Part shown: positions 55,490 through 64,000 of the stretch, in pieces
How the letters are laid out: each line of letters begins with the position of its first letter
Numbering within the stretch: the first letter of the stretch is position 1
Origin: Gammaproteobacteria bacterium
GTDB taxonomy: Bacteria > Pseudomonadota > Gammaproteobacteria > Pseudomonadales > Porticoccaceae
NCBI GenBank assembly: GCA_016191205.1
Contig: JACPPB010000009.1
Span: forward strand, 1 to 64,000
DNA: 64,000 bases
Direction: 5' to 3'
Program-made: the position numbers and the translations under genes
Notes under the pieces: generated by a model
The model's database searches: none
The model's input: the letters and a program-made list of their open reading frames with translations, nothing else
Told to the model about the DNA's origin: nothing

Positions 55490-55566
55490 TGGTGCCGGAA
55501 AGAGGATTTGAACCTCCGACCAACGCATTACGAATGCGCTGCTCTACCGAGCTGAGCTATTCCGGC
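55490..55566 (-). tRNA. tRNA-Thr (anticodon CGU)
   Basis: On the minus strand the 77 bases fold as a cloverleaf: acceptor GCCGGAA/TTCCGGC, D-arm GCTC..GAGC, anticodon stem GCGCA/TGCGT with loop TTCGTAA (anticodon CGT, so Thr ACG codons), T-arm GGAGG TTCAAAT CCTCT. The 3' CCA is encoded. It lies 12 bases after the dsbA stop, so it is probably transcribed from the cytochrome c4/dsbA side or from an unseen promoter. Confidence 0.96.
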
Positions 55567-58060: not shown

Positions 58061-60712
58061 TCAGGCTGTTGGCGAGCAGGTACGCCGGCGCACCGCAAAA
58101 TTTTCCTGACGCAGTTTTATCAGGATTGCCGACGCGCGCTCCGCATCTCCAACCCGTACCAGCGCGTGCAGTATGCGCGCAAGCTTTTCGAGCTCACCCA
58201 GGCGATAGACCGCGACGATACCGGCCAACTGATGGCAAGCCTCGCGGGCGCTGCCGAGATCGGCGTCGGCCAGGAAATCATGGGTGCGGGACACCAGGCG
58301 TTCGATCTCGTCGAAATAGGGTTCTTTGGGCATGGTGTCGCCACTGCCGAACCACTCGGCGACGAGCGTACCCGTGCGCCCCGACAGTTGCAGCAACGCC
58401 TCCAGCAGTTGGCGTTCGTCGTAGGGTTTGCCCAGAACACGCGCTACCCGCACCCGGCCGAGCTCGCGCCCTTCATCGAGGAGTTGGTCGGCGGTAAGCA
58501 CCACGACCGGCGTTGCCGCATTGAGCATTCCAGGCTGCTGGATTTGCAGCAACGCGCCAACGCCGGTGATCTCCGGCATGTGAATGTCCATGAGAATGAC
58601 GTCGAATTTCTGTTCCCCGCAGGCGGCAATGGCCCCAAGCCCGTCCGGAACCGCCCGATGAGTGCAGCCGGTGCGTTCCAGCAGGGTAGTGAGCAGCAGG
58701 CGGCTGAAATCATTGTCTTCCGCCACCAACACCTGAATCCCGCTCAGGTCCGCATGCCCGGGTGAGCGCACGACGGTATCGGTCAACGCGGCCACAAAGT
58801 CCCGGATACCGGCAGGCTTGCCAAGCCAGTGAACGTTGGGGTGATTATCGATGAGATCCCTGGGGATGGTTTCGTGCAGGGTGCGCAGGGGCAGTTGCAC
58901 GATGATCGGGCAGCGCAGCTCTTCAAGGACGTGACGCAGGGACATCAGCTGGCGTTCCGGTGGTTCGCCAAGTGACCAGTTGATCACCAGCGCGGCAGGG
59001 GTGGTGTCGGTCATGGCGTCGATCAGGTCATCGAAGGTGGCCAGCATGTGCGCATCGTCGAACAGGCGCTGCAACAGGGACCGGGCGCTGTTGCGTCCGA
59101 GCGCGTCGGTGTCATAGACCAGCACCTGGCCGGCGTGTTGCGGCGATGTTGCGGCGGACTGCCACTGCAAGGGCAAACTGACCCTGAAGTCGCTGCCGGC
59201 GTCCGGATTGCTGCTCAGCTCAATGGTCCCGCCCAGCAACTCCACATGACGGCGCGCGATGGCGAGGCCGAGTCCGGTGCCCCCGAAGCGACGGGCGATG
59301 CTGGTGTCCGCCTGCACGAAGGCCGCGAAAATCTGCTGTTGCTGGTCGGGCTCGATGCCGACCCCGGTGTCGCTCACGGTGATGGAGAAGTCGCCCGCCG
59401 GGCCCAGGCCGCAGAGCACCAGCACATGGCCGCGGGGAGTGAATTTCACCGCATTGCCCACCAGGTTGGCGAGAATCTGGCGCAGCCACCTGGCGTGGCC
59501 GAAAGCATGTGCGGGGACGGCAGGGTGGATGTCCAGATAGACTTCGACGCCCTTGGCGTGCGCCGCCGGCGCCAGCAGGCGGACGCAATCCTCGATGCAT
59601 TCCAGCACATCAAAAGGTTCCGCACGGCTGCTTTCGGCGCCAACCTGAAGTTTGGTGAACTCGAGAATGTCGTCGATCATCGCCAGCAGCGACACGGATG
59701 CCTGGTCGATGATGTGGCAATAATTGCGGTCGGCGGCGTTCTGCAGATCGCGTTCCAGCAGGCGCACGAAGCCCTGGATCGATGTCAGCGGGGTACGCAG
59801 TTCGTGGCTCATCCGCGCCAGGAAGTCGGTCTTGGCACGATTGGCCGTTTCCGCGCGTTCTCCGGCGATTTCCAGCTCCTGGTTCTTGGCCCGCAACTCG
59901 TCGAGCGTCCGGGAGAGGTCCCGGGTAGCCTGCGCAACCTGCTGCTGGAGATCGAGCTGACTGCGTTCAACCGAATCGGCAAGATGGTTTATGCCGGCAG
60001 CCAGGTGGGCGAGTTCATCGCGCGTGGTGGTTCGCGCGCGCGCGGCGAGATTTCCTTGCCGCAGCCGTATCACGGTGTTGGTGAGGTCGCGAATGGGGGT
60101 GACGACGGAGCGCGATAACACCAATGCCATCAGCAGCGCGGTCCCCAGTACGCCGGCACCGATGCCGATGCTGCTCACCACGGTGGCGTGCTGGGCGCGG
60201 CGCGCCTCCGTGAGATCCATGGCGATCACCACCCAACCGAGCGGAGCGCGGGGCGGCCCGGCAGTGGTGGCCGGATAGTCGTCCACCTCCACGGGGACCG
60301 CATAGACGCCGCGCTCCAGGATCAGCACGTCACGCATTTCACGCGCCGCCGTGCCCAGGGGTTGCGTCAGATCCAGGTCCGGGCCGGGAGCCGGAAAGGC
60401 AGTGCTGGAGACCATGACCCGGCGCTGCCGGTCGAGGAAAATGACACCGCGAATGCCGGGAACCGCCGCGATGGACTCCGCCATGGCTTTGAGCTGCGCA
60501 AGATTGCTCGAATAAAGGGCGAAATCCACCGTATGGGACAAGTAATCGATCATGCGTGCGCCGGACTCCTCCACCTTGCGCAGGATGTCGCCGTGCCGGC
60601 CATGGATGCTGTAGGCGGTCAGCAACGCGGTAATCAGGAGCAACGGCAGGGAGCCGATCAGCAGCAAGCGCAGCTGCAGGTTGCGGCGAATGTCGAGCGC
60701 GGAAAACTTCAT
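58061..60712 (-). CDS. BarA-like tripartite hybrid sensor histidine kinase
   Basis: Inner-membrane sensor of 883 residues. In order: TM1 (LLLIGSLPLLLITALLTAY, about 15-34), a periplasmic domain of about 140 residues, TM2 (GAGVLGTALLMALVL), HAMP and coiled coil, HisKA (FLARMSHELRTPLTS), ATPase (NLVGNAVKFT, VSDTGVGIEPD, GGTGLGLAIA), a receiver-like domain without a clear phospho-acceptor, a full receiver (ILMDIHMPEITG) and a C-terminal Hpt domain (ACHQLAGI). The layout is that of BarA, which signals to a UvrY/GacA regulator. No such regulator is adjacent. It overlaps the upstream binding-protein gene by four bases. Confidence 0.9.
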   Translation of the reverse strand: MKFSALDIRRNLQLRLLLIGSLPLLLITALLTAYSIHGRHGDILRKVEESGARMIDYLSHTVDFALYSSNLAQLKAMAESIAAVPGIRGVIFLDRQRRVMVSSTAFPAPGPDLDLTQPLGTAAREMRDVLILERGVYAVPVEVDDYPATTAGPPRAPLGWVVIAMDLTEARRAQHATVVSSIGIGAGVLGTALLMALVLSRSVVTPIRDLTNTVIRLRQGNLAARARTTTRDELAHLAAGINHLADSVERSQLDLQQQVAQATRDLSRTLDELRAKNQELEIAGERAETANRAKTDFLARMSHELRTPLTSIQGFVRLLERDLQNAADRNYCHIIDQASVSLLAMIDDILEFTKLQVGAESSRAEPFDVLECIEDCVRLLAPAAHAKGVEVYLDIHPAVPAHAFGHARWLRQILANLVGNAVKFTPRGHVLVLCGLGPAGDFSITVSDTGVGIEPDQQQQIFAAFVQADTSIARRFGGTGLGLAIARRHVELLGGTIELSSNPDAGSDFRVSLPLQWQSAATSPQHAGQVLVYDTDALGRNSARSLLQRLFDDAHMLATFDDLIDAMTDTTPAALVINWSLGEPPERQLMSLRHVLEELRCPIIVQLPLRTLHETIPRDLIDNHPNVHWLGKPAGIRDFVAALTDTVVRSPGHADLSGIQVLVAEDNDFSRLLLTTLLERTGCTHRAVPDGLGAIAACGEQKFDVILMDIHMPEITGVGALLQIQQPGMLNAATPVVVLTADQLLDEGRELGRVRVARVLGKPYDERQLLEALLQLSGRTGTLVAEWFGSGDTMPKEPYFDEIERLVSRTHDFLADADLGSAREACHQLAGIVAVYRLGELEKLARILHALVRVGDAERASAILIKLRQENFAVRRRTCSPTA

Positions 60713-61656
60713 GGCTGCTCCCGCAGGGCGGCGGCATATCGGGACTCCAGCACGGCGGCGACCGGCAAGGCAATGCCGAGGGCGTTGGCCACGGTGGCGT
60801 TGGTGGTCAAGGTGTAATACCGCGGCGGTTGCAAGCCGGGCGGAAACAGCCCGTGCACCAGCCGTTCGGTGACGAGTTCGGCGCCCTGCTGGCCGATATT
60901 CTCAGGGGACGAATACACCGATGCCAAAGCGCCGGCATCGGTGTAGGCGCGGGAAAAACCGATGACCGGAATCCTGGCGCGAAAACTCAATTGCAGTAGC
61001 CAGTTGGCGACCGCGCGATTGAAATCGGCGCTATCGGGTAAAACCACCACCACCTGCGCGGCCTTGATCAGTGGCGAGAGTCTGGCGATCGGGTTGTCGT
61101 CGGGTTTGAGAACGTCGATCAGCGGCTTGAAACCAAGCGCGGTGGCCCCGCCTTCGAGAGCGGCGTCATGCTTGCGGGAAAGCGGCCCCAGCACCGCGGA
61201 CAGGGTGCGCGCCTCTGGCATCAGCAAGCGCGCCAACTGCAGCAGACGCTGCGGCGGCTGGTCGAGTGCCACCGCAGTGTTGTTGCCGAGCCCGGGGTCC
61301 CGCGCGCATTGTTCGCGCCAGAAATCGCTGGTGACGAACAGATGCAGGGCGGGTCGGTCGGGATAGCGGGCGCGCAGGTCGGTCAACGCCTGCGCGCCGA
61401 TGCTGACCAGGATGTCTTCCTCAGGCCAGTTCCCGGTCTGGGTGTGAACGCTGACGACCGTCTCGGGCGTGAGCAGTCGGAGGTGGTGCTGGAGACTGTC
61501 CGCTGTCGCTTGGTAATACGGCATATCTCCCGCAAGCAGCAGACGGACCGTGGCGTCCGCCTGGAATGGCGCGCCGCAGCACAGGAACAGCAGCAGAAAC
61601 GACCACGCAGTGCGCAATCGGTGGCGTCCTCCCCTGCTGTAGCCGGTCTCTCTCAC
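60709..61656 (-). CDS. Periplasmic ABC-type substrate-binding protein (PF04392-like)
   Basis: A 315-residue exported protein with a signal peptide (AWSFLLLFLCCGAPFQADA) and a type I periplasmic binding fold: ILVSIGAQALTDLRARYPDRPALHLFVTS, VVVVLPDSADFNRAV, RIPVIGFSRAYTDAGALASVYSSPENIGQQGAEL. No permease or ATPase genes accompany it. Its four-base overlap with the hybrid kinase suggests it binds a ligand for that sensor rather than feeding a transporter. Ligand unknown. Confidence 0.82.
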   Translation of the reverse strand: MRETGYSRGGRHRLRTAWSFLLLFLCCGAPFQADATVRLLLAGDMPYYQATADSLQHHLRLLTPETVVSVHTQTGNWPEEDILVSIGAQALTDLRARYPDRPALHLFVTSDFWREQCARDPGLGNNTAVALDQPPQRLLQLARLLMPEARTLSAVLGPLSRKHDAALEGGATALGFKPLIDVLKPDDNPIARLSPLIKAAQVVVVLPDSADFNRAVANWLLQLSFRARIPVIGFSRAYTDAGALASVYSSPENIGQQGAELVTERLVHGLFPPGLQPPRYYTLTTNATVANALGIALPVAAVLESRYAAALREQP

Positions 61657-61719
61657 TAACCGAACTCCCTGTCCATGGGCTTTTGCCCGTGCATCCAGGC
61701 CGCTGTCGTCTACTCCGGA

Positions 61720-63786
61720 TCAATCGGGAAAATCCAACCGGGCGCGCAGATAAACCGCCGTGTCGAACCTGTTTTCCTGGTTGAACTCGGAATAATCCTG
61801 CCCGAGATTCTGCGCCACCAATTGCAGGTCGCCTTTGCTCGCACCCGCCTTGAAATGCCATGTGGCTTGGGCATCGACCCGGGTAAATCCGTTGATCGGG
61901 TTCCCGTTGCGCCAATCCACCGCGCTTTGCGCGTAAACAAAAACGCCAAAATCGAGCGCGTCCGACCACCGATGGTTGACCAGTAGACCACCGGAATGGC
62001 GTGGAGTGCCACCGTCAAAACTCCGGTACTGGATAACCGGGTCGAAGCGGGCTATGCGCCGACTGTTGATGTCCTGATTGGCATAGTGCAGGCGGAACCA
62101 GGTGCGGGGCGACAGATGATAGGTGATTTGAGTTTCGACGCCGGCGGTGTTCCAGCGGGCGACGTTGTCGCGCACCAGGCGTTCGTTGTCGAAAAAAGGT
62201 GGCAGGGCCGTGATGCTTTCGCGGTAGTCGTCCAGCCCGTCGCGGACCTGCTCGCGAAACAGCTTGATATCGAAGTCGATCCCCTGCGCGGGAAGGCGGG
62301 CCAGGTAGGCCAGCTCCAGGCTGTTGATGCGTTCGGCGCCGAGGTTTGCCGCCACCCGACGCTGATCGTCGGTGATCACGTCGCCCAGGCGGAAAACCTG
62401 GCGTTCGTCGGCTTCCGTGATCGAAGGCGCGCGCTGACCTCGCGCGTTGCTCAGGCGCAGGGTATGGTCCGGATGGATGAGGTAGTTGAACGACACGCGC
62501 GGCGATACCAGCGTACCGATCGGGGTTTTTTCCAGCATCGCCCCGGTGGAGATAGTCAGGTCCGTGGTCGGCAGCCATTCGCTCTGGGCAAACAGGCGCA
62601 GGCGTTGCTCATCGTGCGTGGCGCCATCGTCAAATAAGAACCGGCTTTCGACGCCATCCCAGCGCGTCCCTACACCCCACACGCCAGTCAGCGAGTCGCA
62701 CAACCGTATCCGCTGCACCGCTTCGAGGTCGTAACGTTCCGATACGATGGTGTGAAAACCCTGTACCGAGTGCTGGTCCGGAATACCCAGCAGCAGCGGT
62801 ACAAGAGCAGGGCTCACTCCGAGCAACGCGGAAATCGGGCCCAGATCGCGTACGCCATAAGTGCGCAAATAGTTGTGGTACAGGGTCAACTCGAAATCGC
62901 TGGTGTCGGACAGTTGATGCCCCCAGCCAACGCGCTGGTGCTGGCCGTAGTAACGCACCGGCAGATATTCGTCCAGCCGGTCGGCATCCCCGAATACGGT
63001 GTCCTGGCGGCTGAAGCCGCCATCGAAACTGAGCGTATCGGCGAGGCTCGGGGTGTAGGTGGAGCGTAGCCCAAGGTTCCAGGTTTCGGCGCCGTCGTCG
63101 GGACCGGCGGCGTTGAAGTTTGGAAAGCCGTCGTTGTGGTCGAAGCCCAGGGACACGCGATAATTGAAATCCTCGATCTGGTCGCTGTGACGCACCCCCA
63201 CTTGCTGGGTGCCCCGATCGCCCGTGGTCGCGCGGACACGGGTGCCCCGATCCTGGACTGCCGACCGGGTGATGATGTTGACCGCGCCTGCAAAGGCGTT
63301 GGATCCGTGCGCCGCGGCACTGGGGCCGCGCACGATCTCGATGCGGTCGATGTCGTCGAGGTCGATGCCCAGCGCGCCCCAGACCACGGTGGACTGGACC
63401 GGGTCGTACACCGAGCGGCCGTCCACCATGACTTCGAGGTGGTTGGGCAGTTCGCGGCCCTGGCCGTGGTAATCGATGCCGAAGCGATTGGCGTTGGGTG
63501 CGTAGGCCTGGAATCCCGGCACTAACCGGAACACATCCACCCAGTTCATGGCGCCCGCGGCCCGCAGCATGTCGGCGGTGATCACGGTGACGCTGGCGGG
63601 AGCCCGGGCGGCGGTCTGCGGGAGGCGGCTCGCTACGGTCTGGAGTGGAATCTCGCCCAACAGATCGCCTTCACTGAGGGTGTCGGAGTGGGCTGGCGCG
63701 GCACCGCCCGTCATTGCCAACCATCCGATGGTCGCAGACAGGATGCGGATACCCTTTGGGAGCGCATTTTTAAGCTGTTGCAACAC
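61720..63786 (-). CDS. TonB-dependent outer-membrane receptor
   Basis: A 688-residue receptor: signal peptide (GIRILSATIGWLAMTGGAAPAHS), plug domain (ASVTVITADMLRAAGAMNWVDVFRLVPGFQ; motifs VMVDGRSVYDPV, IDRIEIVRGPSAAAHGSNAFAGAVNIIT) and a 22-strand barrel ending YLRARLDFPD. The GTG at 63786 was chosen because AAGGA lies upstream and a standard signal peptide follows; ATG at 63828 has no ribosome site. It heads a three-gene run with the binding protein (63 bases downstream) and the hybrid kinase. The substrate cannot be told from sequence. Confidence 0.9.
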   Translation of the reverse strand: MLQQLKNALPKGIRILSATIGWLAMTGGAAPAHSDTLSEGDLLGEIPLQTVASRLPQTAARAPASVTVITADMLRAAGAMNWVDVFRLVPGFQAYAPNANRFGIDYHGQGRELPNHLEVMVDGRSVYDPVQSTVVWGALGIDLDDIDRIEIVRGPSAAAHGSNAFAGAVNIITRSAVQDRGTRVRATTGDRGTQQVGVRHSDQIEDFNYRVSLGFDHNDGFPNFNAAGPDDGAETWNLGLRSTYTPSLADTLSFDGGFSRQDTVFGDADRLDEYLPVRYYGQHQRVGWGHQLSDTSDFELTLYHNYLRTYGVRDLGPISALLGVSPALVPLLLGIPDQHSVQGFHTIVSERYDLEAVQRIRLCDSLTGVWGVGTRWDGVESRFLFDDGATHDEQRLRLFAQSEWLPTTDLTISTGAMLEKTPIGTLVSPRVSFNYLIHPDHTLRLSNARGQRAPSITEADERQVFRLGDVITDDQRRVAANLGAERINSLELAYLARLPAQGIDFDIKLFREQVRDGLDDYRESITALPPFFDNERLVRDNVARWNTAGVETQITYHLSPRTWFRLHYANQDINSRRIARFDPVIQYRSFDGGTPRHSGGLLVNHRWSDALDFGVFVYAQSAVDWRNGNPINGFTRVDAQATWHFKAGASKGDLQLVAQNLGQDYSEFNQENRFDTAVYLRARLDFPD

Positions 63787-64000
63787 TCTGCTGTCCTTGC
63801 ACGGCAGGCGGAAACCAAAGTGCAGCATTGTAGCGGCGGACTGTCGCTTTGCCAGCCAAGGGCTTTTGGAGGCGGCGGTTTGGCTGACAGCCCTGGCGTC
63901 GGCGTGTACCATTCCGGTCGCTCCACCGCCTCCGGTCAGCGTGGTCGTGACGGCGACCCGCTGCGCCATCGCGAGCGGCGCTCATGCGGTCGTGACCGGG
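63787..64000. other. Region upstream of the TonB receptor, no gene seen
   Basis: 214 bases to the window edge. I see no convincing gene, promoter or Pho-type repeat here. Confidence 0.4.

Follow-up and report, generated by a model that had tools for sequence, protein, structure and literature searches.

Why should a TonB-dependent receptor, a solitary periplasmic binding protein and a hybrid histidine kinase be encoded side by side, and do they serve the uptake of a nutrient or the transmission of a signal? This question is raised by three genes that lie head to tail on the minus strand (58061-63786) of a marine-type gammaproteobacterial genome of 2.5 Mb, the nearest named relatives of which are the Porticoccaceae. 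The products are referred to here as T (receptor), S (substrate-binding protein) and K (kinase), and the stretch of DNA analysed, the opening 64 kb of contig C8, as the window. The reading favoured below, to which we give a probability of roughly 0.55, is that T and S constitute a trans-envelope input module on a BarA/GacS-type kinase that drives UvrY/GacA and Csr. Since the ligands of GacS have been described as unknown (PMC7695008), the operon brings an old question within reach of experiment.

Organization of the operon

The genes are transcribed in the order T, S, K (Table 1), with a gap of 63 bases between T and S. The stop codon of S and the start codon of K share the sequence ATGA, which suggests that the two are translationally coupled. 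The initial annotation, made from the sequence, had described a receptor, a binding protein and a hybrid kinase on one strand, the last two overlapping by four bases, and had listed a permease, an ATPase and a DNA-binding regulator as missing. Coordinates, domains and overlap agree with this description, and no permease, ATPase or regulator gene is encoded in the operon. A search of the surrounding 19 kb against Rfam found neither a riboswitch nor a known RNA, and terminator-like sites in the T-S gap do not exceed the level expected by chance. The sole tRNA found in the window is a tRNA-Thr (CGT) at 55490-55566. In most members of the window's family, K faces genes for a 2-hydroxyacid dehydrogenase and a class-V aminotransferase, and in many of them T is divergent from a pdxH-like gene (L034-L050); this serine/PLP-type neighbourhood is conserved at those loci and is missing in the window.

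Table 1. Positions of the genes, domains and sites of the operon within the window
Feature	Coordinates	Strand	Basis and remarks
T, TonB-dependent receptor	61720..63786	-	Pfam PF07715 + PF00593; GTG start at 63786, start checked
S, orphan periplasmic substrate-binding protein, type-I fold	60709..61656	-	GTG start, 315 aa; weak PF04392 match
K, BarA/GacS-family hybrid histidine kinase	58061..60712	-	ATG start, 883 aa; domain matches, alignment, tree
S stop / K start overlap, ATGA (4 bases)	60709..60712	-	
sCache_4 periplasmic sensor of K, residues 39-176	60185..60598	-	Pfam and alignment
HisKA of K, invariant His303	59645..59836	-	Pfam and alignment
Receiver of K, invariant Asp709 and Lys762	58394..58732	-	Pfam and alignment
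Hpt-like C-terminal region of K, approximate	58103..58315	-	Alignment; Pfam Hpt in homologues
Weak sigma-70-like promoter match 5' of T	63827..63855	-	Consensus match only

Distribution and conservation of the gene set

Homologues of S were identified in 28 of 58 related genomes, at 30 loci. At 29 of these 30 loci T, S and K are adjacent, in the same order and on the same strand, and this arrangement, kept over 25-60% identity, extends down to values of about 20-30%. Named GTDB loci, which were identified with an alignment-based S query and include those of Marinobacterium, Pontibacterium and Nitrincola, carry S and K in every case (35/35) and T as well in 33 of the 35. Both Marinobacterium rhizophilum and Pontibacterium granulatum repeat the four-base overlap of S and K. 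Among 275 genomes drawn from across the class, S is encoded in 65, and 60 S loci from this draw were read out. A gene for a Cache-type sensor is located directly 3' of S in 53 of these, with a kinase core in 47, whilst a T-type receptor lies upstream of S in 43, and receptor, binding protein and sensor occur in order in 39. The linkage of T, S and K is thus far beyond chance, the co-occurrence check proposed in the initial annotation did not refute its reading, and the set recurs in many gammaproteobacterial families.

T was not found beside S in 17 of the 60 class-wide loci, some of which lie at contig ends whilst others have the arrangement response regulator-S-K. T is therefore common yet not universal, and S together with the sensor forms the constant core. 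These figures are also what would be expected if S and K were a sensing pair for a small molecule that enters through porins, T being a regulated target or an optional partner: S with a sensor is found more widely (53/60) than the complete set (39/60), and some loci have no receptor beside the pair. We consider this explanation rather unlikely, given that T is present at 29 of the 30 related loci and 33 of the 35 named ones.

A number of departures from the usual arrangement were also observed. The genome of the window encodes a second, divergent set of receptor, binding protein and kinase 22 kb past the window (L198, G000:C8 ~86546-94068), the kinase of which has 1470 residues and ends REC-Hpt-REC-GGDEF-EAL; comparable second sets occur at L229 and, as binding protein and kinase, at L230. 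Receptor genes are doubled in tandem ahead of the binding protein at L034 (G003) and L152 (G209). At L158 (G282) and L174 (G175), a receptor and a binding protein are followed by no sensor gene, the next genes resembling trmO, fabA and fabB, and UvrY is absent from both genomes. At L192 (G149), the sensor is a separate protein of 260 residues, the product after it has 545 residues and matches kinases weakly, and the upstream side is occupied by an OmpR-like regulator.

Domain structure and phylogenetic placement of the kinase

K is composed of Cache, HAMP, HisKA, HATPase, pseudo-REC, REC and Hpt regions, an order of the BarA/GacS type, and its degenerate first receiver sits between HATPase and REC as it does in BarA. 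Pfam Hpt has no match in K itself, in which this region is assigned by alignment only; the same model matches 16 of 24 K homologues, and the phospho-histidine motif is conserved (CHQLAG in K, consensus HQLxGIAGVF). The description of K as tripartite is therefore right in substance.

The top NCBIfam family for K is BarA, at 462 bits, under the equivalog cut-off of 890. This cut-off is reached in none of the 58 related genomes, including those with a typical orphan BarA; in the majority of the other families sampled from the order, orphan BarA scores 608-882 bits. K is nonetheless the best BarA match of its own genome; BarA matches in the window's family do not go beyond 525 bits, and for the majority of its genomes the top one is the T-S-linked kinase. 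Class-wide, kinases linked to S are the best BarA match in approximately 20 genomes, and one of them, L185 (G263), which starts directly after its S gene at a locus where T was not found, attains 908 bits against the cut-off of 890.

In a maximum-likelihood tree of kinase and receiver domains, most linked kinases fall together with 31 of 31 orphan BarA proteins in a clade of 95 rows (SH-aLRT 92), which the majority of other hybrid kinases do not join; L201, the E. coli-like reference, corresponds to an annotated barA. Within this clade linked and orphan members are intermixed, and at least 10 changes between the two states are required on the kinase tree. On this evidence K is assigned phylogenetically to the BarA/GacS kinase family, which goes further than the label 'BarA-like' that it had initially received. 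The cores of a minority of linked kinases are placed elsewhere in the tree, and exchange of kinase cores has therefore taken place at times.

Divergence of the sensor domain

The state of the sensor follows the linkage. When a profile of the sensors of the window's family was scored against kinases of other families, the median was 87 bits for the sensors of linked kinases and 47 for those of orphan BarA (p 1e-9), whereas no difference was apparent (p 0.7) between their kinase cores (277 vs 277) or receivers (109 vs 106). A phylogeny-corrected version of this comparison, which comprises four independent pairs and is underpowered, runs in the same direction without being significant, and the HK control leans likewise. 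Asp145 of K is shared by all sequences of the family alignment and lies in a periplasmic loop that orphan BarA generally lacks. The D-[YF] form is seen in 1 of 31 orphans, against 20 of 44 linked sensors from beyond the window's family, among which the strict motif is thus not universal. At two loci, L154 (G130) and L156 (G099), T and S are kept and a Cache-GGDEF-EAL protein, whose sensor still matches the profile, takes the place of K; genome G099 retains a separate orphan BarA. The divergence of the sensor, the Asp loop and these replacements with a matching sensor together favour contact between the sensor and S. Outputs on the same T-S input are interchangeable, as some relatives have a response regulator within the operon and others a Cache-GGDEF-EAL protein.

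The sensor of K is itself modelled as a Cache domain (pLDDT 83.6) with structural matches to DctB, CitA and WalK; the GacS NMR structure 5O7J was not found among the 50 fold matches listed. In E. coli, BarA senses protonated acetate through its own periplasmic Cache domain, with no such partners (PMC8639471), and the Cache domain of K could therefore likewise sense a small metabolite directly, the link to T and S being historical or a modulation of supply only. This counts against the preferred explanation. Direct sensing is also favoured by the working of orphan BarA without T and S and by the presence in K of a Ser at the position of BarA Thr98, where by sequence alignment a hydroxylated residue is kept. 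This alternative is nevertheless judged unlikely, since the adjacency and overlap of S and K persist over great divergence and S-linked sensors differ from orphan ones when the attached kinase cores do not.

The receptor and the binding protein

T has a signal peptide, Plug and TonB barrel, and Pfam detects no STN signalling domain at its N-terminus. FecA-type signalling was rejected for T, as there is neither an STN domain nor a gene for FecR or an ECF sigma factor.

The predicted structure of S is that of a type-I binding protein (pLDDT 92.6). Its nearest solved relatives by fold are CD0873 (Z 24.9), VC_1101 (22.4) and TrpX/SP1069 (21.1), and the structures matched include 3lkv and 3lft as well as, more weakly, the receptor-kinase partners LuxP and XylFII-LytS. 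NCBIfam TrpX matches two S homologues, far under its cut-off, and no lipobox was seen in S. The ligands of these relatives are Tyr, Phe and Trp (PMC6816091). When S is aligned by eye with these relatives, its invariant Asp208 falls on the Asp that is conserved in their PTDN/LIDN motif, and the two positions of specificity, occupied by Ala/Glu and Tyr/Gln (PMC6816091), correspond to an invariant Ser and to a Pro in S. Judged from these residues, the ligand may be amino-acid-like and need not be an aromatic amino acid.

The usual companion of S-type binding proteins is a CmpB-type ABC permease (PF06541), and a full ABC transporter for S encoded elsewhere with better linkage had been named at the outset as a finding that would speak against signalling. 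PF06541 was found in 0 of the 58 related genomes by a search whose positive control, Lactococcus lactis, gives matches, and S therefore looks like an orphan used for signalling.

TonB receptors often adjoin two-component genes, and PfeR/PfeS with PfeA provide the model for a system of local control. On these lines T, a normal receptor, and S could import a nutrient by way of an inner-membrane carrier whilst K regulates nothing except their expression, which is improbable for an operon without a permease, in genomes without PF06541, whose kinase belongs to the global BarA/GacS family and can be replaced by GGDEF-EAL outputs.

The probable response regulator and Csr

The genome of the window encodes one CsrA and one UvrY/GacA-like regulator (223.6 bits; NCBIfam UvrY cut-off 280), the gene for which is followed by uvrC (L071). 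In the window's family UvrY occurs in all 20 genomes with an operon of the window's form, compared with 2 of 13 without S, and the four members in which a LuxR-type regulator opens the operon are all devoid of it. These data were pooled with the class draw, UvrY being scored as present at E <= 1e-60 and also for a single truncated gene at the end of a contig. Genomes that encode a regulator within the operon then lack UvrY in 9 of 13 cases, and the remaining genomes in 3 of 63 (Fisher p 9e-7). This pattern argues for UvrY/GacA as the distant partner of K, although shared ancestry has to be reckoned with and part of the correlation may reflect joint loss in small, streamlined genomes. The remote regulator of K is likely to be the UvrY/GacA-type protein encoded beside uvrC. 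The 1470-residue hybrid kinase at C8:89656-94068 was rejected as a UvrY partner, as it ends in GGDEF-EAL and kinases of this size class are also present in genomes that lack UvrY.

Proposed mechanism and its significance

The initial interpretation of the operon as a signalling unit is supported, and the trans-envelope input module favoured here would operate in four steps. Firstly, a ligand that is scarce or bulky would cross the outer membrane through T. S, whose usual permease is absent from the related genomes, would then capture this ligand and serve signalling rather than transport. In a third step, modelled on the action of LuxP on LuxQ and consistent with the gene linkage and the divergence of the sensors, liganded S would act on the Cache domain of K and set the balance between kinase and phosphatase activities. 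Finally, phosphate would pass from His303 to Asp709, to the Hpt histidine and on to the UvrY/GacA-type regulator encoded elsewhere beside uvrC, which would control Csr/Rsm; the domains and genes for this route are present, and the partnership is presumed.

A literature search, from whose coverage subscription journals were largely absent, found no description of the T-S-K operon. Taken singly, TonB receptors, BarA/GacS and pairs of a binding protein with a kinase are all familiar. What appears to be new, as it was not found in the literature searched, is their fixed combination, with BarA/GacS-clade kinases as the output in many families. It can be proposed, tentatively and with somewhat less confidence than the mechanism itself, that in Gammaproteobacteria BarA/GacS was widely, and perhaps ancestrally, wired to an outer-membrane receptor and a periplasmic binding protein, that the orphan form of E. 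coli and Pseudomonas is reduced, and that the cassette is portable and able to drive cyclic-di-GMP enzymes as well. The BarA/GacS pathway controls virulence, biofilm formation and secondary metabolism in many bacteria, and a kinase that shares an operon with its own S and T offers a biochemical handle on the long-sought BarA/GacS signal.

Comparison with known systems

Several established systems resemble parts of this operon. FecA-FecR-FecI shares with it a TonB receptor at the head of a signalling chain; T differs in having no STN domain and no accompanying FecR or ECF sigma gene. TrpX, VC_1101 and CD0873 (ABC_sub_bind) are the nearest solved relatives of S by both sequence and fold, although S has no ABC transporter, no lipobox was seen in it, and it differs from them at the two specificity positions. 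In common with LuxP-LuxQ, TorT-TorS and XylFII-LytS, a type-I binding protein adjoins a kinase and no transporter was found, and LuxP and XylFII rank among the lower fold matches of S. In contrast to these pairs, the operon adds an outer-membrane receptor, its binding protein belongs to the ABC_sub_bind/TrpX type and its kinase to the BarA family. The closest parallels to the kinase are BarA/UvrY and GacS/GacA (Csr/Rsm), with which K shares its domain order, clade, Cache sensor and Hpt, and its genome a UvrY-like gene followed by uvrC, as in the classical gacA-uvrC arrangement, together with CsrA. Unlike BarA and GacS, K shares its operon with a TonB receptor and a binding protein, scores under the BarA equivalog cut-off and has a diverged sensor that carries an extra conserved Asp loop.
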